From IMG/VR virus record IMGVR_UViG_3300030380_004776, positions 1 through 50,950 of that record: DNA of 50,950 bases; one strand, 5' to 3'. Position numbers and translations under genes: made by a program. Positions 6,904 to 40,070 of the stretch are shown piece after piece; the first letter of the stretch is position 1, and the number at the start of each line of letters is the position of its first letter. This DNA comes from a virus. The notes beneath the pieces were generated by a model, which worked only from the letters and a program-made list of their open reading frames with translations, had not been told where the DNA came from and ran no database searches.

Positions 6904-7387
6904 TATTAATTACTACTATCATTAATGGTCTTAAATAACCAGTCTTAGGTTCTTTATTATCTTCACTAAAAAATTTAGTGCCATATAATCCTTTTGTTTT
7001 TTCAATAAATCTAATTTCTACATTTTTCTTAGGTTTATGTTTTTTATTATCCCAAAGATAGTTATGAAAATAAACTGAATTAGTAGAGGCTGGTAAAAGA
7101 AATACTGAAGTGCATTTAGACTCAGAAGCTTTTTTAATAAATTTTGGTATCTTACCATCAAACATTGGGTGACAATAAACAACCTCACCATCCCAGTTTT
7201 GAGTACATGCATCAATTTCTTTTGTCCAATATTTTGGAAGTAAATGATTTTTATCAGAGGCACATGCGTCTACAGTAAATTTAAATTCTTTAATAAGTTG
7301 AGTCCATATTTCTTTTGGAGTTCTAATCCACTCCATTTTAAGTATGTTTTTATTGTGTAATAAATTAAATTGTTTTTGTTGTACCAT
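6896..7387 (-). CDS. Dam-like phage N6-adenine methyltransferase with altered catalytic motif (163 aa)
   Basis: The layout follows the phage DNA N-6-adenine methyltransferase (Dam) family: WIRTPKEIWTQLIKEFKFTVDACAS, then WDGEVVYCHPMFDGKIPKFIKKA, then VFLLPASTNSVYFHNYLW, then an IRFIEKTKG strand. Where active members have NPPY this protein has HPMF (73-76), so base flipping and catalysis are doubtful. The ATG forms a TAATG overlap with the primase stop; an internal ATG at 7336 is an alternative start. Family placement is good, activity questionable. Confidence 0.75.
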   Translation of the reverse strand: MVQQKQFNLLHNKNILKMEWIRTPKEIWTQLIKEFKFTVDACASDKNHLLPKYWTKEIDACTQNWDGEVVYCHPMFDGKIPKFIKKASESKCTSVFLLPASTNSVYFHNYLWDNKKHKPKKNVEIRFIEKTKGLYGTKFFSEDNKEPKTGYLRPLMIVVINNG

Positions 7388-8940
7388 TAGGTTTTAAATT
7401 TGCCAGTATGAAATTCATCATCCATTTCCGATACTGCTTTTGTTTGTTTTGGTTTAGTTGCTTTTTTATAATCTACAAATTTAGGCATCTCTACTGACCA
7501 TACATTTTTTACTCCCTCATGGTAATCTATTCGATTACAACCTAACAAATGCATTGCTTCTGCTGCACTTTTAAATGTTTTATCATTACCTAGAAACTTT
7601 TCAAAAGTAATTTTTTTGAAGTAACATACATTTGTTTTAGAATCTAAGACAACATAATTATCTTGTAGCTTATCAAAGTCGTCTTCTTCAATATGGCTTT
7701 CAAAGAATTTTTTAAGAAAATTATATTTCTCTTCTCCAAGTGTATCTTCAAATTTCATTTTCTCATTCTCAACTGCTTTTTTAACGATAGTTGACATAAG
7801 CATCTCAAAAGGAGATGGTCCACTTCTAGGTCTAGGTAGTGTTATCCAATAGATTCCATATCTAAGTAATTTTACTCGAAAAGACTTTTCATCTTTCATG
7901 TCTTCAGGGCCAATAATAATTTTTTCACCTTGAAACACAAATGAATATTCAATTGATTTAGTGCTTCTAATAAATTCTATTTCTTCAAAATCATCTATTA
8001 AATCTGGTACTTGTGAGCCTATTCCTAACTTCCTAAACTTACATAAATCTTTATTACATATAGGTGTGATTGCACCAAGTTTAGGTGGACACTTATAATT
8101 GTAATCTTTTTTAATTACAGATCTTGCAACAGAGTTTTCTACTTCTCTTGTATCCATAGGTGTAACAAATATTTCTTGATTTCTTTTTTGCAAAATAGTT
8201 CTCATCTCATCTATTGTAATTTTGCCATCTGACTTTTTCATTTCAAGCACACCCACATTGTAAAGTAAATCGTTACGGTGATTACCAGACCATTTATCCA
8301 TAATCATTTTTTGAACACATGGTGGATAATGTTTCCAATCTTCTTCAGGCTCATATTCTTTTACTTTTATATTTTGCAATTGATCTAACGATAAAGTTTT
8401 ATTTCTAATTATTTCAATAAATGTTCCTATCATTACTGGGGTGTTGGATTCATTATAGGCAAACTCAGTGGTAGCATTCATATTGAAGTAAGGCATGTTC
8501 ATACATTTATTCATTGGAAATACTTCTAATGCTTGAAAGAAATTTTTATTCCATTCATTTAATTTTTTTAAAACATCTTTGACTGGATACCAATTATCTA
8601 AAAACAAAAACAAATGTAGGCCACCTGATTTTGATCTAACTGGTATTAAGGGTAATTGATTATCTCTTAGAATATCTATAACTTTTTTTTGTGAATAGTC
8701 TTTATAACTTTGTGGGTCTATATCGATACATCCCCACTTACACATATCATCCTTTTCAGGTTTGATACCTATACGTTTCGTACCTTCTAAATGTTCCTTC
8801 CAAATTTTAAGAGTAACTGGTTCGTGGACCGTGAGTGTTTGGCCTACTGTCTTGCCCCGTTCATCTACCTCTCCAGTAAGAGAGGTAGTGATGAACAGTT
8901 CAGAATTTCCCTCAAATATTTTTAAGAGTTGCTCCTCCAT
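7387..8940 (-). CDS. Primase/polymerase of the archaeo-eukaryotic type (517 aa)
   Basis: N-terminal AEP catalytic features: WGCIDIDPQ with D73 and D75 (metal-binding motif I) and SKSGGLHLFLFL with S105/H109 (nucleotide-binding sxH motif II). A central segment has four cysteines (C208 in YPPCVQKMI, C284 in YNYKCPP, C295 and C300 in ICNKDLCKF) in an order seen in primase-associated Fe-S or zinc domains. The C-terminal third is unassigned. Likely makes replication primers. It lies between the ssDNA-binding candidate and the helicase. Confidence 0.82.
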   Translation of the reverse strand: MEEQLLKIFEGNSELFITTSLTGEVDERGKTVGQTLTVHEPVTLKIWKEHLEGTKRIGIKPEKDDMCKWGCIDIDPQSYKDYSQKKVIDILRDNQLPLIPVRSKSGGLHLFLFLDNWYPVKDVLKKLNEWNKNFFQALEVFPMNKCMNMPYFNMNATTEFAYNESNTPVMIGTFIEIIRNKTLSLDQLQNIKVKEYEPEEDWKHYPPCVQKMIMDKWSGNHRNDLLYNVGVLEMKKSDGKITIDEMRTILQKRNQEIFVTPMDTREVENSVARSVIKKDYNYKCPPKLGAITPICNKDLCKFRKLGIGSQVPDLIDDFEEIEFIRSTKSIEYSFVFQGEKIIIGPEDMKDEKSFRVKLLRYGIYWITLPRPRSGPSPFEMLMSTIVKKAVENEKMKFEDTLGEEKYNFLKKFFESHIEEDDFDKLQDNYVVLDSKTNVCYFKKITFEKFLGNDKTFKSAAEAMHLLGCNRIDYHEGVKNVWSVEMPKFVDYKKATKPKQTKAVSEMDDEFHTGKFKT

Positions 8941-20271: not shown

Positions 20272-20715
20272 TTAATTTTTTCCTATTGAAATTGATAATG
20301 TTATTCTTGGAGACAACCCTACTGATTGATGCCATTCTCCTTGTTCTACATAAAGTAAATCTCCTGGACATACAATGTATTTTTCACCCTCTACTAAATA
20401 AAGAGTTTCTCCGTACAAATTAAATAATAAAACACTGCAATTATCGGTGTGTGCAAATCCACTTACTCCACTTACAAAACTCATAAATATAAAAGGATCA
20501 TAGGCTTTGTCTATAATTTTAAGTTTAATGCAAATTTTATTTATTAATTGTTGAAAAAATTTGTCAACGTGAACATTTTCTACTTTGATTACATTGTGCA
20601 AAACGTTTTTTTCTTTCTCAAATATTTTAGATAAGTAATGATCTTTTGAAAGTAATTTAAACAACTCATTAAAGTCTAATAAAGTTTTATCAAAGTCTTT
20701 ATAAATTTTTGGCAC
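20272..20715 (-). CDS. JmjC/cupin-like Fe(II)/2OG oxygenase (147 aa)
   Basis: A double-stranded beta-helix with GFAHTDNCSVLLFNLYGETLYLVEG (H89 and D91, the HxD pair), a GDLLYVEQGEWHQ strand with distal H129, and SPRITLSIS with R137. The WHQSV pattern is JmjC/cupin-like rather than prolyl-hydroxylase-like. Sits between two glycosyltransferase genes, so a modified glycan or glycoprotein could be its target (inference). Confidence 0.75.
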   Translation of the reverse strand: MPKIYKDFDKTLLDFNELFKLLSKDHYLSKIFEKEKNVLHNVIKVENVHVDKFFQQLINKICIKLKIIDKAYDPFIFMSFVSGVSGFAHTDNCSVLLFNLYGETLYLVEGEKYIVCPGDLLYVEQGEWHQSVGLSPRITLSISIGKN

Positions 20716-21631
20716 TCAAAGCTCCCTTTAAAAAATTTGTCCATTCTTGTCCTTTTTTATCCCAGTTATAAAATTTTTTATAGTATTTTTGTTGTTCATT
20801 TAAATGGTCTTGAACAGATTCTTCATGTAAATAATTAGAAGCAGTATTAATAGCACTCGCAGTATCTAAAGCCATTTGTTCATAGTTTGTAGAATAATTT
20901 ATGTACACTGGCCACTCAGCACAAGTTTCATACAATGCACCAAAATTATTTGTAATAACATGTACGCCAGAAGCTAGTGCTTCTAAAGCAGACACACAAG
21001 ATGTTTCTTCAAATATACAAGGGTAAACAAACATATCATAATTTGGCATCATCTCTTTAATAAATTCATTTGGCTTGTAACCAATATAATTTACATTTGA
21101 TAATTCTTTTGCTTGTTCATAAAGAGGTAAGAATTCTTCATCATGTGATTTACTAAAATCACTTCCATAGACTTGCGAGGATGAATATACATCTAGTATA
21201 ATATTAGGGTTTTTTATTTCTTGCATTGCTCGAAGTAATACATTTAATCCTCTCCAAGGTGTACAGTGATGCACTAAACGTATAGGCTCTCCTTTTTTAT
21301 ATATTTTTCTTATAGGAAATTCTTCAATACCATTTTTAATAACTATTGATCGTTCAGTTGGTATGTCAAAAAAATATCTAAATTTTTCATAATTCCAATG
21401 ACTGTTAAAAACATACCAATCATATTCTTTATGTCGTTCTTTATTTCTAAAAAACTCTTGAAGATTTGGTTGATCATAAGAATTTTTTTGCCATAAGATA
21501 TTCATCTTATTTTTGTCAATGGGAACTTTACCAGGTATAGAAGTACATATTTGAACTTGATCTAGTAATTCTTTAGAAACGTTTCTTTGTAACATTTCCA
21601 TTTGTAATTCAGTTGCACCTCTTGGCTTCAT
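20699..21631 (-). CDS. Glycosyltransferase, GT-B fold/family 4-like (310 aa)
   Basis: C-terminal lobe carries the GT4 pattern EETSCVSALEALASGVHVITNNFGALYET with the nucleotide-sugar-binding Glu, preceded by IRLVHHCTPWRGLNVLLRAMQEI (domain-linker motif) and VNYIGYKPNEFIKEMMPNYDMFVYP. The N-terminal acceptor lobe is short, but SHWNYEKFRYFF and SIVIKNGIE are typical. Transfers a sugar from a nucleotide donor. Overlaps the oxygenase gene by 17 bases. Confidence 0.88.
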   Translation of the reverse strand: MKPRGATELQMEMLQRNVSKELLDQVQICTSIPGKVPIDKNKMNILWQKNSYDQPNLQEFFRNKERHKEYDWYVFNSHWNYEKFRYFFDIPTERSIVIKNGIEEFPIRKIYKKGEPIRLVHHCTPWRGLNVLLRAMQEIKNPNIILDVYSSSQVYGSDFSKSHDEEFLPLYEQAKELSNVNYIGYKPNEFIKEMMPNYDMFVYPCIFEETSCVSALEALASGVHVITNNFGALYETCAEWPVYINYSTNYEQMALDTASAINTASNYLHEESVQDHLNEQQKYYKKFYNWDKKGQEWTNFLKGALSAKNL

Positions 21632-21832: not shown

Positions 21833-21963
21833 TATACTCTCCCTTGTTTATGGTATTTCTTATAACTTCTTTTTTCATTTTTGTTAAGTCTTTTTTTGTG
21901 TCGACCTGGCCTTTTTCTAGGTTTTGGTCTTGGTACGTAGTGAATAAACTTTTGTCTAGCCAT
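21832..21963 (-). CDS. Small very basic protein (43 aa)
   Basis: A short frame from ATG 21963: MARQKFIHYVPRPKPRKRPG followed by a run of Arg, Lys, His and Tyr. About half the residues are basic. Such short Arg/Lys-rich proteins recur in marine phages near virion genes and may bind nucleic acid. It overlaps both neighbours (the sulfotransferase stop at 21956, and the next ATG as TAATG), which supports translation. Confidence 0.65.
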   Translation of the reverse strand: MARQKFIHYVPRPKPRKRPGRHKKRLNKNEKRSYKKYHKQGRV

Positions 21964-22561
21964 AGATTACTTTATAATCTTTGTAATAATAGTTTTTTAT
22001 ACAATTAATTTGCGATGGTGTAAACTCTATATCATTTGTAGAATCGTAATCACCTTTTTCATAATCAAGACTAATCTGATCAAATTTAAAGTTAAATTTT
22101 TCGTTTAACCACTCAATAAATTTTTTATCTAGCCCATTTTCATATTGCCAAATATGTGTATCATAAGACAAAAAATTTACTTGTGGCACAAACCAATTAT
22201 GAGAAGTTGAAATTATTTGATTGTTAATAAAAATATTTAAATCATCTATTACTCGTGTAACATTTTGTTCATTTAAATCTACATCGTTAATTTTAAAGGT
22301 AGCCTTAAGTAATGATTTAAAACGTGAGACAGGGTCTCTTACTACTGTAAATTTTGTTAAATCTTTTTTACTTGAAAGTTGTAAATAATATGGATACTCA
22401 AAATGTGCAACATCAATATCTTTTTGTTTTATTTTATCTTTTTGAAAAAAAGTATAGTCTGTAAAATTACAACTATAATTATTTCGTCTAAATAAATTTT
22501 CAACATATCTACCACCCGTTCTTGGAATGTGCACAAAATAAAATTGATTGTTAATTAACAT
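21956..22561 (-). CDS. Sulfotransferase-family protein (201 aa)
   Basis: Both PAPS-binding signatures are present: HIPRTGG (11-17) is the 5'-phosphosulfate loop and VVRDPVSRF (73-81) the 3'-phosphate motif. These place it in the carbohydrate sulfotransferase group. It would transfer sulfate from PAPS to a sugar or tyrosine. It is adjacent to two glycosyltransferase genes, so a sulfated glycan product is a reasonable inference. Joined to the neighbouring gene at 22561 by a TAATG overlap. Confidence 0.85.
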   Translation of the reverse strand: MLINNQFYFVHIPRTGGRYVENLFRRNNYSCNFTDYTFFQKDKIKQKDIDVAHFEYPYYLQLSSKKDLTKFTVVRDPVSRFKSLLKATFKINDVDLNEQNVTRVIDDLNIFINNQIISTSHNWFVPQVNFLSYDTHIWQYENGLDKKFIEWLNEKFNFKFDQISLDYEKGDYDSTNDIEFTPSQINCIKNYYYKDYKVIYG

Positions 22562-22911: not shown

Positions 22912-23072
22912 GATAAAAAGTAATTAAAAGCATCTTGTTCATTTTTTATTTCTCTTTGATAAGAAGTGTTTAACTTATCTTTTAAAGTTTGTAAAGATTG
23001 TGCTACTTGTCTTTGATTGTCTTCAGTATAAATCGGTGTTGGTTCAGGTATTACTACATCAATTCTAGCCAT
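22908..23072 (-). CDS. Small hypothetical protein (54 aa)
   Basis: A short frame with TAATG overlap to the nozzle gene upstream and ATGA overlap to the next gene. Product MARIDVVIPEPTPIYTEDNQ then a helix (RQVAQSLQTLKDKLNTSYQREIKNEQDAF). Coupled overlaps at both ends support it as a real gene of the tail operon; role unknown. Confidence 0.6.
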   Translation of the reverse strand: MARIDVVIPEPTPIYTEDNQRQVAQSLQTLKDKLNTSYQREIKNEQDAFNYFLS

Positions 23073-25222
23073 TATCTCATACCATCTGGTTGTACATCTG
23101 CCCTAAAAGTTCCATATCTCCAATTTTGATCAGTAGATAAATTTGCAACTTTAATACTTGCAAATCTTGATCTTGCTCTTGTGTCTACTTTTTCTGTTGT
23201 ACTATTAACAGTAAAAGGTCCGAGAGGCGAGGATGCTGCAGTATTAGACGGAAACTTTCTTAAGTTGATAGTTATTTGTGCATCACCAGTAATTAATTTA
23301 AAATCAGGAAAGAATCTTCTAAGACTCATAAAAAATTGACCATCTCCTCCTTGAGATAAATCAAAATCTCCAGATTGGATAAAAGCAGGTATAGCTGTTT
23401 TAGTACCAGCTGAGTCAACTTCATTGTTACCTACCTCATGTGCATAATATGTTGAAGCTCCATTTGCATTCGTAACTCCTTGAATTGTTGGAAAAGTAGG
23501 AGTTCCTGAAGATGAGAATTCTGTTGCGTAAGGATTATCATATAAAGTTGCATCAAACCAAGTAGTTCTTGATAATGATCCAGTTGTCCAAGTTTGTTCT
23601 GTGTAATTATAAGTTACGACTCTGTCAATTAATGTTGAATTAGCTTTAGGGTAAAACCAACTAATTTCTTCATACAAATGATTTAGTCCTGCATAAATTT
23701 GTTCACCATTAGAGTAACTTAAACCAAGATTGTCTCCTTTATTCGTAAATACAAAATCTTCAACTAAACATGGTACAGATTTTACAGTACCATCATAAAC
23801 AAAAAAACCTCCAGCTTGACCCATCCACCAAACTGCACCGTTAACATATTTCACAGCATGTTGTCCTATTAATCCACAATTAGAACCTACTTGCCTAATT
23901 GAAAAAGTAAAAGGTGGACCAACGAATTGCATAACATATGCAGATGTATCAGTTAATATTAAAATATAATCTTTACCTTTTGCGGCTCCAACAATTTTTG
24001 TTCCTGAGTCAATTCTAAAAGTACCAGCAGTATTTATAGAAGTAGGAGCATAATCAGAAATATCTTCTTGATCTGAAAATCTAATAAACATCTTATCTTG
24101 TGTTGAACTTGTACCTATAGTTGTTTCTGTTCCCAAAAGAATTAAATGTCTATCTCTTTCAGAAACAATAGACATGACTGAAGTAGTAGGAGCACCACTT
24201 ACGACAGTAGCTCTAGTTGATAGTGCAGCAGCTAAAGTTGAAATAGTGTCCCATTCAAAAGTTTTACCATTTTTTATAGTAGCAATTAATTTTGATCCAA
24301 AATGATCTAATGACCAAGAAGCTGATTCTAGTGTTACCCCACCTGTTAGTGACGCAGTACCCCATCCTAAATATATTTCAACTGAAGCACCCGTAGAATG
24401 TGCAGTTCTTGTTCCCGCTACTCCTCTAGTGATACCAGTTAAATCATTTGAAGAAATACCAGTGTAACTTATAAATTCAGTGCCTACTTTAATTGTGCCT
24501 GAAGTTGGAAAACCAACAACTGAAGATAATGTAATAGAAGTACCCGACCCTCCTGTACCAGCAGTATCATCTTGTAATAAACCATTTAAAGTAGATATAA
24601 CTCCAGATGAGCCTCCCCATCCTGATGTACCATATCCAAAACCAGATGTTTGATTTAAAGGACCAACTTTAACATAAGGGTTAATTACAGCAGAACCACT
24701 TGCCGCAACAGTAGTTCCAGCATTGGCAGCCATAGTAATTGTAAAAGTGTCTTGTGATGGTACGGTCACTACTTCAAAAGTATTAGTTGTAAAATCTGCA
24801 GCTGAATAACCAGCTCCACTTGGAGGTGTTACAGAGGTAAATGTAAATAAATCTCCAGCAGATAATCCATGAGCAATTTTATTTACTGTTACGGTAGGAC
24901 TAGTATTAACCGTTGTAAATGTTGCTCCTGAAATTGCAGCATCTAGTGGTGTAATATCGTAAAAAGCATCTTCAAAATATATAAGTAAAACTTTGTTTGT
25001 ACCAATTGCTGAGTATCTTCTTCCATCTAAATCTGCCCAAACTAATTGATCTCTAGCTGCACCACACAAAGTGTTTGCAGTAATTTGTTCCCAACCACCT
25101 ATTTTTTCAGGTAAGCCATATCTAAATCTTACAAAATCCCCATCAGTCCATTGTCCCTCAGCACCCGTTGCGGTTACTTGTTTATTAAATCCTGGTCTAA
25201 TCTGTACATTTGTTAAAGGCAT
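23072..25222 (-). CDS. Tail nozzle/hub (DNA stabilisation) protein (716 aa)
   Basis: N-terminus MPLTNVQIRPGFNKQVTATG ... WTDGDFVRFRYGLPEKIGGWEQI is typical of large podovirus tail hub or nozzle proteins (P22 gp10/T7 gp12 position). Residues about 105-180 form a HGLSAGDLFTFTS-type beta domain; residues 222-285 hold a second small domain that also occurs in the 303-aa tail protein. The C-terminal half has propeller-like repeats with many aromatic residues. The start has no Shine-Dalgarno, but a promoter at 25228-25256 would give a leaderless message. Confidence 0.78.
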   Translation of the reverse strand: MPLTNVQIRPGFNKQVTATGAEGQWTDGDFVRFRYGLPEKIGGWEQITANTLCGAARDQLVWADLDGRRYSAIGTNKVLLIYFEDAFYDITPLDAAISGATFTTVNTSPTVTVNKIAHGLSAGDLFTFTSVTPPSGAGYSAADFTTNTFEVVTVPSQDTFTITMAANAGTTVAASGSAVINPYVKVGPLNQTSGFGYGTSGWGGSSGVISTLNGLLQDDTAGTGGSGTSITLSSVVGFPTSGTIKVGTEFISYTGISSNDLTGITRGVAGTRTAHSTGASVEIYLGWGTASLTGGVTLESASWSLDHFGSKLIATIKNGKTFEWDTISTLAAALSTRATVVSGAPTTSVMSIVSERDRHLILLGTETTIGTSSTQDKMFIRFSDQEDISDYAPTSINTAGTFRIDSGTKIVGAAKGKDYILILTDTSAYVMQFVGPPFTFSIRQVGSNCGLIGQHAVKYVNGAVWWMGQAGGFFVYDGTVKSVPCLVEDFVFTNKGDNLGLSYSNGEQIYAGLNHLYEEISWFYPKANSTLIDRVVTYNYTEQTWTTGSLSRTTWFDATLYDNPYATEFSSSGTPTFPTIQGVTNANGASTYYAHEVGNNEVDSAGTKTAIPAFIQSGDFDLSQGGDGQFFMSLRRFFPDFKLITGDAQITINLRKFPSNTAASSPLGPFTVNSTTEKVDTRARSRFASIKVANLSTDQNWRYGTFRADVQPDGMR
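24368..24559 (-). repeat. Inserted beta domain shared with the 303-aa tail protein
   Basis: Encodes residues 222-285 of the nozzle protein, with SGTIKVGTEFISYTG, LTGITRGVAGT and AHSTGASVEI. The counterpart at 32733-32933 has SGTIQIGLEFITYTG, LTGATRGARGS and AHAAGVPV. The two copies align through their length. Confidence 0.75.
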
Positions 25223-25227
25223 AAGAC

Positions 25228-25256
25228 ATTATAACTTATTCTAGAGAGCTTATAAA
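25228..25256 (-). promoter_or_regulatory. Candidate promoter for the nozzle gene
   Basis: TTTATA (25251-25256), 17-base spacer, perfect TATAAT (25228-25233), minus strand. The expected start point falls on or next to the ATG at 25222. It lies in the 27-base gap between genes. Confidence 0.45.
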
Positions 25257-25744
25257 GACTTCTCATATTCGATGTTAATCCAACAAGTATAATTTTTGTC
25301 TGTTGGACTTGTTAAATTATATGAGATATTACTAGGTAAAGTAATAAGTCTGTTTTCAACACATTCTATTTGATCCCCACCTCCAACACAAACACTTGAA
25401 TTTGTACTGTTTAAACAAAGAATTGATCGTAATAAATTTGTTTTAAAATTAGGTTTGATTGGAATATCAATATTTTTATTTGTACGACTTATTAATAAAA
25501 CATCTGCACTATTTACCTTCTCGACATTCAAACCTTTTAAAAGACTACTTATGGTAGGGCTCATGAAAGGACTTACTTCTCTTTCTTCGTGTTTATTAAT
25601 TGAAATTAAACTATGAAAAAATTTTAAATACTTTAAATCTTCTGTTGTTAATATAAATGTCCATGGGAACTTATCTGAAAAGATAATATCTTTTGCCATG
25701 TAAAAAGTTTTATTTTCAAGATAATTATTTGTAACATTAATCAT
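25250..25744 (-). CDS. Degenerate 2OG-oxygenase-like protein (164 aa)
   Basis: I choose the ATG at 25744 with AAAGAAAG upstream, overlapping the previous stop. The order FPWTF, FFHSL, SPFMSPTISSLLKGLN, ISRTNKN, ENRLITLPSN and CWINIEY follows phage 2OG-oxygenase relatives that open with FPW and end in a conserved iNi.Y strand. The HxD pair and distal His of active members are not seen where expected. It is therefore probably a catalytically dead beta-helix with a structural or binding role. Next to two intact oxygenase genes. Call is tentative. Confidence 0.45.
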   Translation of the reverse strand: MINVTNNYLENKTFYMAKDIIFSDKFPWTFILTTEDLKYLKFFHSLISINKHEEREVSPFMSPTISSLLKGLNVEKVNSADVLLISRTNKNIDIPIKPNFKTNLLRSILCLNSTNSSVCVGGGDQIECVENRLITLPSNISYNLTSPTDKNYTCWINIEYEKSL

Positions 25745-25973
25745 CTTTCTTTGGTTCAACACCCTCAGCTACAGAATCGCTTTTAGTCATCAAATCTTTA
25801 ACCTCAGGACCTAATTTTGTATTGAATGTCCAAACCATATTAACTAAACAGTTACCAAAGTGTTTCAAAACTTCAGGTGTGAAATGTATTTTTTTATGTT
25901 TGTTTATAATTTTAACTTCTTCTTCAGAAAAAGTTAAATCGCAAGAACCATCATCGTGTTGTTTAAAAAACAT
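25737..25973 (-). CDS. Small hypothetical protein (78 aa)
   Basis: Contains CDLTFSEEEVKIINKHKKIHFTPEVLKHFGNCLVNMVWTFN, a helix-rich segment followed by an acidic tail. AAGGGA precedes the ATG. Located between two oxygenase-type genes; family and function unknown. Confidence 0.55.
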   Translation of the reverse strand: MFFKQHDDGSCDLTFSEEEVKIINKHKKIHFTPEVLKHFGNCLVNMVWTFNTKLGPEVKDLMTKSDSVAEGVEPKKDD

Positions 25974-25983
25974 GTTTTTCCCT

Positions 25984-26529
25984 TTAATTTTTTTTATAAT
26001 AATAACTTCTTTTATCTAAATGATAATCTTTATTTTTACCATTTTTATCGACATAATGCAAAAAAGTTTGTGCTGCAAAATCCCCATTAAAAAGCTCTCT
26101 CCAATGAGTTAATTCACAACCTAAATAAATAACTGCATCACCAGGTTTTTGTAAAATAGAGCTTCCATCCATAAAAATAGGCCACGGTGTTGAATCATTA
26201 TCTATATTAATAGTTACACTTATTTCACATGCTGGTCTATCTTTGTGTTTTTTAAGATGAGCATATTTTGTGTACATTCTCCAATATGTATATGTTGGTA
26301 ATAATTCTTTACCAGTGTGTTGTTCCATCAATTTAAGTTTTGTTAGCATTAAAGATTCCATTAAAGGATCTGCATAATAATATGTATCGGCATTAACTTG
26401 AGAAACATCAAAATCTGTTGTGTTAAGTGTATGTCGTATATGACAATATTCTTTTAATAATTTTAACTCTTCTTGTGTTAAAAAATTTTCTATTTTTTTA
26501 TATTTAAAATCTTTTCCTATAATGCCCAT
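25984..26529 (-). CDS. Fe(II)/2OG oxygenase, prolyl-hydroxylase-like (181 aa)
   Basis: The double-stranded beta-helix shows HLKKHKDRPACEISVTINID with the HxD pair H95/D97, a PGDAVIYLGCELTHWRE strand with distal H142, and a following AAQTFLHYVD strand. These are the iron-binding residues of 2OG oxygenases. Overlaps the neighbouring prolyl-4-hydroxylase-like gene by 13 bases. Substrate not known. Confidence 0.85.
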   Translation of the reverse strand: MGIIGKDFKYKKIENFLTQEELKLLKEYCHIRHTLNTTDFDVSQVNADTYYYADPLMESLMLTKLKLMEQHTGKELLPTYTYWRMYTKYAHLKKHKDRPACEISVTINIDNDSTPWPIFMDGSSILQKPGDAVIYLGCELTHWRELFNGDFAAQTFLHYVDKNGKNKDYHLDKRSYYYKKN

Positions 26530-27125
26530 GATACTAATGAATACCTTGTTCCTTTTGTTACTGGTTTTACTGCATGTGGATACATAAAATTACTTGGCCA
26601 AATTATCATTCTATTTTTAATTTTATCTATGTTTATTTCTGTTTTCCCGTCAGGGTTTCTAAAAACTAACTCACCACCTTCATAATTATCGTTTATAAAA
26701 TATATTACACTAAATGTTCTTGGAACTCCAATTCCATGATCGTGATGAAATTTGTAATGTCCACCCTCTCCATATTTAAGAACTTGTATAACTTCTATAT
26801 TGTATCTCATTTTTTCAAATGTAACTAAATCAATATAATTATTTAAATTGTGTTTTATCGTAGCCAAAAAAAAATTAGCCCAATGTATATTAGTAACGCT
26901 TTCTTCATTAATATTTTTAAGAGTACACATTTTTGTGTCTCTTGTTTTTTTTACAACAACATCACTTGTACTTCCATCTTCACCTAACGCAACAACTCCA
27001 GCGTCCTTAAAAATTAAATGTTCATTACAAACCTTTGTAAAATTCTCAAGTGTTTTTGGATGTATTACATTGTCAAAAACTTTTATATAATTAGCTAAAT
27101 TTGTAGAATCTAATTTTATTTCCAT
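26517..27125 (-). CDS. Prolyl-4-hydroxylase-type Fe(II)/2OG oxygenase (202 aa)
   Basis: Clear P4H catalytic core: YGEGGHYKFHHDHG with H127 and D129, NYEGGELVFRNPDG, WPSNFMYPHAVKPVTKGTRYSLVSW with distal H184 and R194. Members hydroxylate proline or lysine side chains in proteins using Fe(II), O2 and 2-oxoglutarate. It lies in the tail operon two genes after the tail fibre and its 143-aa neighbour, in transcription order, and is followed by a second oxygenase. Confidence 0.9.
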   Translation of the reverse strand: MEIKLDSTNLANYIKVFDNVIHPKTLENFTKVCNEHLIFKDAGVVALGEDGSTSDVVVKKTRDTKMCTLKNINEESVTNIHWANFFLATIKHNLNNYIDLVTFEKMRYNIEVIQVLKYGEGGHYKFHHDHGIGVPRTFSVIYFINDNYEGGELVFRNPDGKTEINIDKIKNRMIIWPSNFMYPHAVKPVTKGTRYSLVSWAL

Positions 27126-27853
27126 ATTTTTTTATTCCAAAATTTATTTTTGTATCGATGAATTACTTCACGACCCCATAAACTATGTCTTAAATTTTTG
27201 CTTTTACTTATTGTTTCAATTTTCATTTTCCAACTTTCTCTTTTGAAAGGAATGACTTGCACATAAGGTGTACCCTCTTTTATTACTGTGTCAAGAACTG
27301 GGTATTTATCACCATTAACAATAAAAGGGAAATTTATTTCATTAGGAAATACATCAGTATCTACAATTCCTGGAATAATAGAAAAACGATCATCGGTATT
27401 ATTTAATGGTGGTAAAAACAAACAAGAATACCCCGGTGGTGTTTCAATGATCCATGGATTAAGTATTTTATGCACCTCCATTGTTTTATTTTTTTGAACA
27501 AAAGGACATTTCATTCCTAATTGTCCAATAGGATGTGACTCATCATTGTAAGTATTTACATTTGTAAAATGATAAATTTCTGAACCAGCATCTAATTGTG
27601 CGAAAGCTTTTGAAATCCTTTCATTGTCAACTTTTATATTATGCTTTATTCTGTATTCAATAGGTATACTAAGAGTATAACCAATAGTTAAAGTATCTAA
27701 AAAAGGCATACAACCTTTAACTGTTTTTTCTTTTAAATTATGTGAAATTTCTTTGTACCAATCTGGTATATTTAATTTAGATGGTTTTGGTCTTATATTA
27801 AAATTATTAAGATATATCTTGCTTGTCTTAAATTTTATTATATTTTCAAACAC
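27116..27853 (-). CDS. Uncharacterised phage protein, possibly DUF6065 (245 aa)
   Basis: The segments IPDWYKEISHNLKEKTVKGCMPFLDTLTIGYTL, LNPWIIETPPGYSCLFLPPLN, IIPGIVDTDVFPNEINFPF and EGTPYVQVIPFKRESWKM occur in this order in a phage/bacterial family that I believe is DUF6065. Many conserved Pro, Trp and aromatic residues; a beta-rich enzyme-like fold is plausible. Start is GTG at 27853. Overlaps the P4H-like gene by 10 bases, suggesting joint function. Confidence 0.6.
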   Translation of the reverse strand: MFENIIKFKTSKIYLNNFNIRPKPSKLNIPDWYKEISHNLKEKTVKGCMPFLDTLTIGYTLSIPIEYRIKHNIKVDNERISKAFAQLDAGSEIYHFTNVNTYNDESHPIGQLGMKCPFVQKNKTMEVHKILNPWIIETPPGYSCLFLPPLNNTDDRFSIIPGIVDTDVFPNEINFPFIVNGDKYPVLDTVIKEGTPYVQVIPFKRESWKMKIETISKSKNLRHSLWGREVIHRYKNKFWNKKIWK

Positions 27854-27875
27854 AACCCATTGTTATAATAAATAA

Positions 27876-28307
27876 TTATAATTGTAAAGAATGAAAGAAT
27901 GTAATTGAATTGTCTTCACAGTATTCTTCCCAAGTTTGATTCATAGGAAAAGTAATTGTAGAAGTATCAAAGTCTTGTAATAAATTACAATAATTTTGTA
28001 CATCATTATATCTAGGATGGTTTTGATTATTCCATGTCCATGGTTTTACTAGTTCTAAAGTCGAATTTAAAACTTGTTTTAAAACATCACTGTTTGGGTA
28101 ACCATCAAAATCTATATCTTCTGCAACGACTGCATCGTTTTCATATCTAATCCATTTTTTAGATTTGATTATATCTTGAAACAAATTGTCATCAATTGTT
28201 GCAACTGTATAATCTTGTTCCTTACAATTTATTAGACTTTTAGCATCCTCGTTTTCAGCTACTCTATAAATTTGTCCTACGTCTTTTGTAAAATATGCAA
28301 ATGCCAT
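27876..28307 (-). CDS. Hypothetical protein next to tail fibre, possible fibre chaperone (143 aa)
   Basis: No recognised family. N-terminal strands (MAFAYFTKDVGQIYRVAENEDAKSLI) and a helical C-terminal half ending TWEEYCEDNSITFFHSLQL. It immediately follows the tail-fibre gene, the usual place for a fibre assembly chaperone, but the assignment rests only on position. Confidence 0.45.
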   Translation of the reverse strand: MAFAYFTKDVGQIYRVAENEDAKSLINCKEQDYTVATIDDNLFQDIIKSKKWIRYENDAVVAEDIDFDGYPNSDVLKQVLNSTLELVKPWTWNNQNHPRYNDVQNYCNLLQDFDTSTITFPMNQTWEEYCEDNSITFFHSLQL

Positions 28308-28309
28308 AA

Positions 28310-29545
28310 TTATCCCTCGTTTGTGTAAAATGCTAATCCACCAAAAATACCTGATTGGCCACCTTGTTGAGGTGCACCTCCTGCGTTTCCAGCATCACCT
28401 GCTCCATCAGAGTTTGAAGGACCAATAAATAAAATTTGTCTTGACATTACGTTTGATGAACTTGGGTTTCCAGGATTACCAGGGTTTCCTGGACTTTGGT
28501 TTTGTCCCGGTCTACCGCCAGTTCCACCGTTTCCACCGTTAGTGGTTAATAAGTTTTCTACGTTTGTGGCTCCTCCAGCACTTCCAGGAGTGTTAGATCT
28601 TGTTCCTTGAGGTGCAGGTGCAGCAGCACCTCCAGCACCGACAGTAAATGGATAATCAGTATCAGCAGATACACTTCCAGTAAAGAAACCAAAACCTCCG
28701 TCAGCTCCAGCTCCACCAGGTTTTTGGCCTCCGCCCGATCCACCTCCGCCTCCGCCTGCTACAGCGAATGCTTGAAATTTTGAACCACTTGGTCCAACAC
28801 TAATAGTTCCTGAAGCAGGTCCTATTTTAAAAACTTTTGCAACCATGTTAGCTGCTCCAGCTCCTGATGAAGCTGCTGTAAGTCTACCTTGTGCATCTAC
28901 AGTAATTGATGCTGCAGTGTAAGAACCAGCCGATACAGTTGTGTTAGCAAGTTTGTCGGCAGTTACCGCATCATCTGCAATTTTGTCAGTAGTTACATTT
29001 GCGTTTAGAATTCCCGCAGTAACAACTGCGTTGTCTGAAATTTGTGCAGCTCTAATTGCATCATCTGCAATTTTGGCATTTGTAACAGCATCATCAGCTA
29101 TTTGAGCTGTTCCAATAGTACCACCTAAAGTGTCAAGAGATACTTCTTTTAAATTTGTGCCGTCTGAGTAAGCAGCATAAATTTTTGCAGCATCTAAAGT
29201 AAAACCAGTTCCACTTGCAGTTTTAATTGTTAGGTTTGTTGGATTAGTTAATCCAGTTGCATCAAAAATATAAAATTTTTCTATACTATCAGGTATAGTA
29301 CAAATTGTACTTGCAGCTATTGTAGCTGTTGCAAATTTAATTACCATATTTCTAGCATTAGAAAGAGTTTTATCAGTCATTGCTAAAGCTAAAGTACCAC
29401 CACTTGAAAGTGTTACTTGTTCAAAACCTGCAATTGCTTGTTGAATTAAATTTAAATTATTATTAGTGTTATCTCCCCATGTACCAGCGTTTTCACCAGT
29501 GACCATAAGTTCAAGTTTTAAATCTGTAGAATAACTAGATGTCAT
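28310..29545 (-). CDS. Tail fibre/receptor-binding protein with glycine-rich tip (411 aa)
   Basis: N-terminal attachment region (MTSSYSTDLKLELMVTGENAGTWG) followed by a shaft with short repeats (IADDAVTNAKIADDAIRAAQISDNAV and relatives). From about residue 260 the chain becomes very rich in Gly: GGGGGGSGGG, then PGQNQSPGNPGNPGNPS and a GGAPQQGGQSG end. Gly-rich tips of this sort form polyglycine-II helices in phage adhesins. Probably contacts the host receptor. A TTGATT-N17-TATAAT promoter lies just upstream. Confidence 0.85.
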   Translation of the reverse strand: MTSSYSTDLKLELMVTGENAGTWGDNTNNNLNLIQQAIAGFEQVTLSSGGTLALAMTDKTLSNARNMVIKFATATIAASTICTIPDSIEKFYIFDATGLTNPTNLTIKTASGTGFTLDAAKIYAAYSDGTNLKEVSLDTLGGTIGTAQIADDAVTNAKIADDAIRAAQISDNAVVTAGILNANVTTDKIADDAVTADKLANTTVSAGSYTAASITVDAQGRLTAASSGAGAANMVAKVFKIGPASGTISVGPSGSKFQAFAVAGGGGGGSGGGQKPGGAGADGGFGFFTGSVSADTDYPFTVGAGGAAAPAPQGTRSNTPGSAGGATNVENLLTTNGGNGGTGGRPGQNQSPGNPGNPGNPSSSNVMSRQILFIGPSNSDGAGDAGNAGGAPQQGGQSGIFGGLAFYTNEG

Positions 29546-34703: not shown

Positions 34704-35219
34704 TTAATATTTGTAAGAATGTATGTCAATGTTGAATGATATTATTATCTTTTTTTCATTTGATTTGTTTTCAGGCGAATGATGCTGGTAATATGCTGGA
34801 AATGTAATTAAATCTCCCTCTTTTGCGTCAAAATTAATGACCTCACCGTTTGGTTTTTTCAAAATAGTTTTTAAATTTTTATTCGGCAAATTTATGTATA
34901 AAACATTTGTAAAATGAGTTCCTGGGTGTGTATGTGAGCCATGCCAATCACTTTTATTATATACTTGAAACCAAATATTATTAAAACCAATTGAACTAGC
35001 TTTAATAACAGATGTAAGATTATTGCAGTAATTTTCATAAATATTATTAAAAAAGTAATCAACATATTCTCTTTTCATACTTCGAGGTATTTTAAAATCT
35101 GTATGTGATATTTTTTCATTATCACTATTAAAAGAAGTTTCAGGAATTTTATTTATTAAATTTATTAAATTTAATTTGTGTTTACTAAATTGATCTACTT
35201 CGTGAATTATTAAATCCAT
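34704..35219 (-). CDS. Fe(II)/2OG oxygenase, TIGR02466-like (171 aa)
   Basis: IWFQVYNKSDWHGSHTHPGTHFTNVLYINLP carries the metal-ligand region (H96/H98), GDLITFPAYYQHHSPEN the distal His (146 or 147), and KKIIISFNID closes the barrel with Lys near the 2-oxoglutarate position. The fold matches phage oxygenases of the TIGR02466 type. Placed between small basic virion genes and the endolysin. Confidence 0.82.
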   Translation of the reverse strand: MDLIIHEVDQFSKHKLNLINLINKIPETSFNSDNEKISHTDFKIPRSMKREYVDYFFNNIYENYCNNLTSVIKASSIGFNNIWFQVYNKSDWHGSHTHPGTHFTNVLYINLPNKNLKTILKKPNGEVINFDAKEGDLITFPAYYQHHSPENKSNEKKIIISFNIDIHSYKY

Positions 35220-35698
35220 TAAACTAATAGGTCTTTTGCTTTTCCTAATATTGGTTTGTATTTTGTTTTTCCATCTTCTTTAAAAGCGTGAAGAAATTGT
35301 TTTCTTGGTGTACCCTCTGTTATGCTACAATGTATCCATCCGCTGTTGGGTTCGCCAGCAGTGTAGAATTCAAGAATCAATTGATCCCATTCTAATTCTT
35401 TATGTATCCAGTCTGCAAGTTCAGCGTTGTCTACACCTGGACATTCGAAATCTGCCGCTTCTGCACGAGCATGTTGGCTGTTCGCTGAGCTGCCGATGGC
35501 TTGACACAGGATAGGGCTACGGAACCCGCTGGTCACCTTTACTCTTCCGAAATGGTCACGAACTGGTTGTAAAATTTTTTCACACAAAGTTTTTAATTTT
35601 TCAATTTGTCCTGCATTAGGATTATTATTAATCCCCCTACGTATCGCTGTATCTGATTTAGTTAATTCTGATAAAGTAAAGTTCCGTGTTAATTCCAT
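35219..35698 (-). CDS. M15-type peptidase, probable endolysin (159 aa)
   Basis: FTLSELTKSDTAIRRGINNNP ... LQPVRDHFGRVKVTSGFRSP ... SSANSQHARAEAADFECPG ... SGWIHCSI is the Peptidase_M15_3 pattern; zinc ligands H76, D83 and H123 are present. It would cleave peptide bridges of peptidoglycan at lysis. No signal peptide; export would need a holin. The part around 35400-35560 has clearly higher GC than neighbours. Confidence 0.88.
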   Translation of the reverse strand: MELTRNFTLSELTKSDTAIRRGINNNPNAGQIEKLKTLCEKILQPVRDHFGRVKVTSGFRSPILCQAIGSSANSQHARAEAADFECPGVDNAELADWIHKELEWDQLILEFYTAGEPNSGWIHCSITEGTPRKQFLHAFKEDGKTKYKPILGKAKDLLV

Positions 35699-36207
35699 TA
35701 AACCTCCAAAATTATATTTAAATTAATTCTATATGTTTCTGTTGTTGGACCATATCCAGCATGGGATAAGTTACTTTTAAAAATTTTTGCTTCATCTTTT
35801 ATATCTTCTATTATATCATCTTCTACTTGTAAGTAACCATTACAGGTATTAAAAGAATAAATAATAGTCATAAAATTTTCATCTTTTTCATCTGTATGGA
35901 AATTGCATTTATGACCTTTTGTATAGAAATTCCACATAAATCTTTTAATATTTTTATATTGTAAATTAATTTTTTTACAAACAAGCTCAGTAATAATAAA
36001 TGCATACATATTAAGTTTACTTTCATTTTCATTACTAGGTGGTATTGTGCATTTGCTCATACCCTCAAAATACATATTATTTGTAAAAATTTTTTTTCTG
36101 TTTTCTTGTGTTGTGTGACCTATTTCAAACTGTAAATATTTCAGTTCATTTTTAATTTGATCAATAATATTATCAGTTAATACATTATTAACTTTTTGTA
36201 TTTTCAT
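35698..36207 (-). CDS. Fe(II)/2OG oxygenase (169 aa)
   Basis: GHKCNFHTDEKDENFMTIIYSFN holds the HxD pair H104/D106, IFKSNLSHAGYGP the distal H149, and TYRINLNIIL the 2OG-binding R160. Classic double-stranded beta-helix spacing. Cys and aromatic residues are frequent in the N-terminal part. Lies between the endolysin and a small Cys-pair protein. Substrate unknown. Confidence 0.85.
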   Translation of the reverse strand: MKIQKVNNVLTDNIIDQIKNELKYLQFEIGHTTQENRKKIFTNNMYFEGMSKCTIPPSNENESKLNMYAFIITELVCKKINLQYKNIKRFMWNFYTKGHKCNFHTDEKDENFMTIIYSFNTCNGYLQVEDDIIEDIKDEAKIFKSNLSHAGYGPTTETYRINLNIILEV

Positions 36208-39503: not shown

Positions 39504-40055
39504 CTAGAGATTATTGGGCTTACCAAAATTATCAAATTTTTTATTATATTCATTCATATTAAAACTTAAACCAAATTTAGAAAAATCATCTTCATTTTTT
39601 TCGCACCCATGTGTTAAAAAACTACTAAATATTACAAATTTACCTTTTTCAGGTTTAACTTTTTCTTCTATTTGGGGAAAATTTAAAAATTGAGACGATG
39701 AATTTAAATAAATTGCTCCTGACCAAAGTGATTTATTATGACTGTGATAATTAGTTTTTTCATTTCTTTTTAACTCAAAACCCCAAGCTTCCTCCATTCG
39801 ATATGGTGGAAAATCTGTAAGGGAATCTACGTATTTAATAAGTGGTTTTATTATTGCAATAAATTTTGGATCTTGCGTATAAGTTTGCCAAGATGTCATT
39901 GACCCCTTAATATTAGTTATATAATTTAAGTTTTTTCCAGAACTGCAATTTTGTTTGATTGAGTTTATGAAATAGTCAGCATCTAAATCTACGTATCCAA
40001 CAGTAAAAAAACTATCTAATAAAACATTTTTTTCTAAATGTTTTTTAATTTGCAT
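39504..40055 (-). CDS. Fe(II)/2OG oxygenase, TIGR02466-like (183 aa)
   Basis: NEKTNYHSHNKSLWSGAIYLNSSSQFLNFP has the metal ligand region (H104, H106 counted from the ATG at 40055), KGKFVIFSSFLTHGCEKN the distal H149, and FGLSFNMN the closing strand. I prefer the ATG at 40055; the upstream GTG at 40070 lies in the T-run side of the capsid terminator. No Shine-Dalgarno element is visible for either. It sits directly behind the capsid gene terminator. Confidence 0.8.
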   Translation of the reverse strand: MQIKKHLEKNVLLDSFFTVGYVDLDADYFINSIKQNCSSGKNLNYITNIKGSMTSWQTYTQDPKFIAIIKPLIKYVDSLTDFPPYRMEEAWGFELKRNEKTNYHSHNKSLWSGAIYLNSSSQFLNFPQIEEKVKPEKGKFVIFSSFLTHGCEKNEDDFSKFGLSFNMNEYNKKFDNFGKPNNL

Positions 40056-40070
40056 AATTTTATTTAGCAC

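Follow-up and report, generated by a model that had tools for sequence, protein, structure and literature searches.

The window analysed here is the whole of a 50,950-base linear virus record, which is kin to the SAR11 podophages HTVC023P and HTVC027P. On its minus strand a tail fibre gene is followed, in order, by g143, g245, a P4H-type oxygenase gene (P4H), g181, g170 and g716. The features of this region are as follows, from the fibre downstream.

28310..29545, minus: tail fibre gene, 411 aa, an open reading frame matching phrog_31104, tail-fibre PHROGs and PF21722; its N-terminal part is common to related fibres, and its C-terminal part is a Gly-rich tip
28313..28810, minus: Gly-rich tip, residues 246-411, with Gly_rich_2 (PF21722) at residues 246-399
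28463..28492, minus: PGNPGNPGNP, residues 352-361, inside the fibre tip; P361 is at 28463-28465
27876..28307, minus: g143, a small protein encoded behind the tip; occurs where tips are Gly-rich
27116..27853, minus: g245, phrog_7084, predicted dUTPase-like fold
26517..27125, minus: P4H-type 2OG-Fe(II) oxygenase, ATG start, 202 aa
25984..26529, minus: g181, listed for its relatives as 'ferrochelatase'; by prediction a 2OG oxygenase of PHD2-like type, with HxD...H
25250..25762, minus: g170, phrog_274, follows g181 in some loci; its annotation is 'DNA endonuclease V'
23072..25222, minus: g716, structural protein; an anchor independent of tip and P4H

As a preliminary description of this DNA had it, P4H lies two genes behind the fibre, with g143 and g245 in between and all on the minus strand. 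The g245 and P4H genes overlap by 10 bases and the P4H and g181 genes by 13, which suggests coupled translation. Of 54 fibre loci, 17 also contain g170. For g143, neither Pfam nor PHROG gave a match. The structure model of g245 resembles dUTPases (VIA Z about 10); g245 was also considered as another oxygenase and rejected, as the structural matches listed are dUTPases, with modest Z.

Near the tail module lie a glycosyltransferase group-1 gene (20699-21631) and a sulfotransferase-like gene (21956-22561, just below the Pfam cut-off). Four more 2OG/cupin-type genes occur in the window (34704-35219, 39504-40070, 35698-36207 and 20272-20715); two have PF13759 matches above cut-off, one is a weak 2OG match and one a sub-threshold cupin/JmjC match.

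A pair of predicted 2OG oxygenases

The P4H reading frame carries H127, D129, H184 and R194 exactly where the preliminary description placed them. It matches Pfam 2OG-FeII_Oxy_3 (PF13640) at E=3.8e-20, with 73 bits against a cut-off of 27. Across 40 aligned P4H homologues, H127, D129 and H184 never vary, and conservation of R194 is at least 90%. When the P4H profile is compared with the PDB, it matches PHD2 (E 2.5e-11), prolyl 3-hydroxylase 1, PKHD-type hydroxylases and bacterial prolyl 4-hydroxylases, so that the nearest solved relatives are mostly prolyl hydroxylases; the likeness to PHD2/EGLN1 lies in this profile match, while sequence identity is low and P4H is viral. With an iron triad, a basic 2OG-binding residue and a curated family match, 26517-27125 is, judged by its sequence, a prolyl-hydroxylase-like 2OG-Fe(II) oxygenase.

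The adjacent g181, which did not figure in the pairing first described, is predicted to be a second PHD2-like 2OG oxygenase. Its structure model is confident (pLDDT 97), and an oxygenase fold is predicted with high confidence. The top Foldseek matches are P. putida PPHD (E 1.9e-07) and PHD2, the best of all being PPHD with EF-Tu. VIA Z scores are about 15-16 for PHD2 and PPHD and 16-17 for the 2OG-dependent epimerase SnoN. The predicted fold is a double-stranded beta-helix with HxD...H, formed by H95, D97 and H142, which are at least 90% conserved in the g181 alignment. As with P4H, the likeness to PPHD and PHD2 is one of fold, with low identity and a viral protein, and a search of the g181 sequence against the PDB gave no match.

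In relatives, g181 is widely labelled 'ferrochelatase' (phrog_2954, HTVC023P gp67 and many cyanophages), and one phage record hedges between oxygenase and ferrochelatase names for a g181-type protein. This label is contradicted by the predicted oxygenase fold and by a Pfam scan, in which none of 38 g181 family members had a ferrochelatase match. Some phages have the P4H and g181 parts fused in one protein. Wittmers et al. 2022 (PMC9599517) have already published the adjacency of a 2OG-Fe(II) oxygenase and a 'ferrochelatase' in HTVC023P-type pelagiphages; both the type of gene pair and the phage group agree with those found here, which limits the novelty of the pair itself. As far as its account of these two genes goes, that paper files them as auxiliary metabolic genes and makes no tie to fibre tips; here the second gene is reassigned to an oxygenase fold.

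Linkage of the pair to Gly-rich fibre tips

Comparative genomics had been proposed in the preliminary description as a check on whether GXY-rich fibre tips and P4H genes co-occur. The co-occurrence of Gly-rich tips with this P4H subfamily is near-exceptionless in the family, and the linkage extends to unrelated phages. When loci are selected by their fibre, P4H and g181 lie downstream in 54 of 54 cases, these being distinct related tips with at least 4 kb of downstream sequence. When loci are selected by P4H, a Gly-rich protein, fused to the fibre or separate, lies upstream within 6 kb in all 70 loci with room for it. Because these two sets share ancestry, g716 was used as an independent anchor. 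Among group C loci found through g716, P4H is present at 90 bits or more in 21 of the 22 with a Gly-rich tip.

The link between tip and pair is not absolute. Of the g716 loci without a Gly-rich tip (seven in group C and seven in group A), 7/14 keep P4H/g181 orthologues, and a strict dependence of the pair on such a tip is rejected. In those of these loci that were read, the tip is a tail-collar-like protein, and the pair sits on the other strand, surrounded by further 2OG genes. All five psg01-like loci (group B) have Gly-rich fibres; three of them hold g181 and a weaker P4H-like match, and two hold a P4H-like match of 94-95 bits without g181. Within the g716 set, g245 occurs only with Gly-rich tips and g143 profile matches are limited to the same kind of locus. 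A quick tree of P4H splits tip-linked from collar-linked sequences with 2 label changes, compared to 17.2 when labels are shuffled; its one mixed row is a labelling artefact, since the Gly-rich reading frame at that locus (L203) is not a tip.

The pair also adjoins Gly-rich fibres in HTVC023P, HTVC033P, pelagimyophage Mosig and cyanophage S-CAM8, and the linkage thus recurs in unrelated podo- and myoviruses (HTVC033P, Mosig, S-CAM8). Nearly all loci in the g181 scans hold the pair. In two further scans, 66 distinct pair loci had 4.5 kb of upstream sequence present, and in 44 of these a Gly-rich reading frame, in every case on the strand of the pair, begins or lies no more than 5 kb upstream. 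Some cyanophages encode homologues of one enzyme or of both with no Gly-rich gene beside them. Twenty whole phage records contain both g181 and a Gly_rich_2 match, and in 14 of them the two are no more than 5 kb apart, compared to an average of 3.6 under random placement; 14 was never reached in 200,000 draws, a probability that is indicative, as related records are counted separately. Of the 27 other 2OG genes in those records, only 1 is as close as this to a Gly_rich_2 gene.

Proline context in the linked tips

The tip domain of the window fibre is Gly_rich_2 (PF21722; E=6.5e-07, 30 bits against a cut-off of 24.3, residues 246-399), a domain of the adhesin type for which polyglycine-II structure is characteristic, as in S16 gp38. 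The tip probably folds in a polyglycine-II-like manner. The S16-like gp38 and hafunavirus adhesins (PMC8651126) share with it a Gly-rich distal tip. A search of the fibre sequence against the PDB gave no meaningful match, and a tblastn search of phages with a consensus tip gave none, probably owing to low-complexity masking.

Proline makes up 7.3% of the residues in pair-linked tips, and it is placed unevenly. In 79 clusters of linked tips, Gly-X-Pro-Gly (GxPG) occurs 155 times and Gly-Pro-X-Gly (GPxG) 57 times, compared to 73 and 72 after shuffling. Gly-X-Pro-Gly is the context favoured by collagen hydroxylases, and the linked-tip prolines, as read from their sequences, prefer it. The best-conserved tip proline position has Pro in 90 of 118 tips and Gly next in 88; window P361 aligns there, and about a quarter of tips lack this proline.

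Controls were taken from a Pfam search over 299 genomes, as a profile scan of genome contigs with the Gly-rich domain gave two loci only. These 28 Gly-rich control clusters surround Gly_rich_2 matches of bacterial genomes that lack the pair, and they belong to other lineages than the linked tips; they contain 22 GxPG and 23 GPxG. The density of GxPG per 100 aa is 1.27 in linked tips and 0.40 in unlinked Gly-rich domains, a threefold difference. In 45 clusters of distant partners there are 100 GxPG and 38 GPxG, compared to about 93 of each after shuffling, so that in this set GxPG is not enriched and the signal is GPxG depletion, a pattern that a purely structural constraint could also produce.

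Two related contigs (L367 and L406), which represent one natural loss, retain the tip, g143 and g245 and have no tip-side pair; the conserved proline motif is missing from their tips. Homologues of g245 also lie near the adhesins of HF1-type haloviruses, which resemble the window tip in being Gly-rich and differ from it in being Pro-poor, with no P4H or g181 in the loci examined. Together, this loss and the distant halovirus comparison are suggestive only that proline tracks the pair. At L367, a 470-aa flavin-dependent-halogenase-like protein (7031-8440) with GxGxxG and WxWxIP motifs is encoded among several 2OG genes beside the Gly-rich tip.

Candidate substrate and alternatives

The genes are intact and conserved, they are linked to Gly-rich fibres, and the proline bias is absent from unlinked domains. 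From these observations we infer the tip as substrate, proline as the residue, a polyglycine-II fold and a physical effect or benefit. P4H and g181 would be two PHD-like 2-oxoglutarate/Fe(II) oxygenases working as one module, by which the phage's own Gly-rich tail-fibre tip is modified during its synthesis. The likeliest chemistry would be hydroxylation of proline in X-Pro-Gly, for which the window candidates are at least one of P352, P355, P358 and P361. As a likely result, packed strands rich in glycine, probably of polyglycine-II-like form, would become stiffer or be capped; alternatively, hydroxyls might be added to the receptor-binding surface. We give hydroxylation of X-Pro-Gly in the phage's own tip by the pair about an even chance of being correct. 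A broader version, in which the two PHD-like oxygenases, g143 and dUTPase-fold g245 form an adhesin-maturation cassette hydroxylating X-Pro-Gly of polyglycine-II-like tips, is put forward tentatively, as a possibility short of an even one.

Searches of an open-access library turned up no phage hydroxylase reported to act on a fibre, and no tie between the pair and a fibre tip. Marine phages often encode 2OG oxygenases, which are generally classed as metabolic or DNA-modifying without a known target. If the host-recognition tip is the substrate, one widespread pair would be accounted for, a recurrent 'ferrochelatase' label would be put right, and a phage adhesin would prove to be chemically tailored; under the broader version this would be a receptor-binding protein that SAR11 and cyanobacterial phages share. 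Many marine phages have the pair behind a Gly-rich tip, and they may thus chemically modify the portion of the virion that meets the host.

The pair could instead act on the tip, or on a neighbouring virion protein, at a residue other than proline, for instance by hydroxylating Asn, Asp or Lys or by readying a residue for glycosylation. The linkage data name no residue, Asn and Ser are common beside Gly in tips, a glycosyltransferase is encoded in the same module, and the closest VIA matches of g181 include SnoN, which is not a prolyl hydroxylase; however, the solved relatives of P4H and the Pro-Gly bias that tracks the pair both favour proline, and we regard a different residue as unlikely. 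A host or other non-tip protein, such as a translation factor, is a similarly doubtful target. In that case the pair would lie near fibres as shared variable host-interaction cargo, which would suit the collar-tip phages that keep it, the EF-Tu hydroxylase PPHD as top Foldseek match of g181, and the hypervariable island that the fibre region forms in related myophages (PMC7029224). Yet the P4H subfamily goes with tip type, and other 2OG genes of the same genomes are not found near Gly-rich fibres (1/27 vs 14/20).

Hydroxylation of tip proline, as preferred here, differs from the collagen-type helix proposed in the preliminary description, in which hydroxyproline would stabilise a triple helix in the tip. 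The PGNPGNPGNP stretch is real, at residues 352-361, but it amounts to three Gly-Asn-Pro triplets, and the name 'collagen-like' does not hold for the tip. Three consecutive GXP are unusual (0.14% of shuffles), whereas the longest GXY run in the window tip is 4 triplets, which 54% of shuffled tips reach; run lengths of GXY are at chance level given the glycine content. The window tip thus lacks the extended uninterrupted GXY of collagen. Among 118 related tips upstream of P4H, GXP runs of at least three occur in 2 and of at least two in 27, and the GNP run is nearly private to the window genome. Extended GXY repeats are absent from all but a few linked tips. In the L050 tip, a GXY run of 19 triplets contains 5 Pro, each in the Y position.

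True collagen-like proteins do occur near P4H/g181 in other viral contigs, at L473:8549-12409 (103 GXY triplets) and L459:1-528 (46), with Pro mostly in X; at L459, P4H and g181 are fused. Where fibres near the pair have long GXY repeats, they lack Pro or carry most of it in the X position, which argues that the pair is not simply a collagen system. Repeat length, the window run being too short for a helix, and the X or Y placement of Pro lead us to reject a collagen triple helix in the tip, the domain is Gly_rich_2, and stabilisation of such a helix is highly improbable in spite of the GNP triplets and the L050 run. The collagen-like prophage fibres of E. coli O157:H7, also Gly-rich phage fibres, are reported to contain long GXY domains, to lack a prolyl hydroxylase and to show no preference of Pro for the Y position (PMC3368898), whereas the window system has a hydroxylase-like pair, an X-Pro-Gly preference and no long GXY.

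Auxiliary metabolism, with an oxygenase and a ferrochelatase serving host iron or haem as proposed for HTVC023P-type phages, has the published annotation and the adjacency of both genes in its favour (PMC9599517, as far as that account goes) but is scarcely credible, since g181 is confidently modelled as a 2OG oxygenase with no ferrochelatase Pfam match and the fibre linkage would be left unexplained. The arrangement of pair and Gly-rich fibre is present in the cultured phages HTVC023P, HTVC033P and Mosig.
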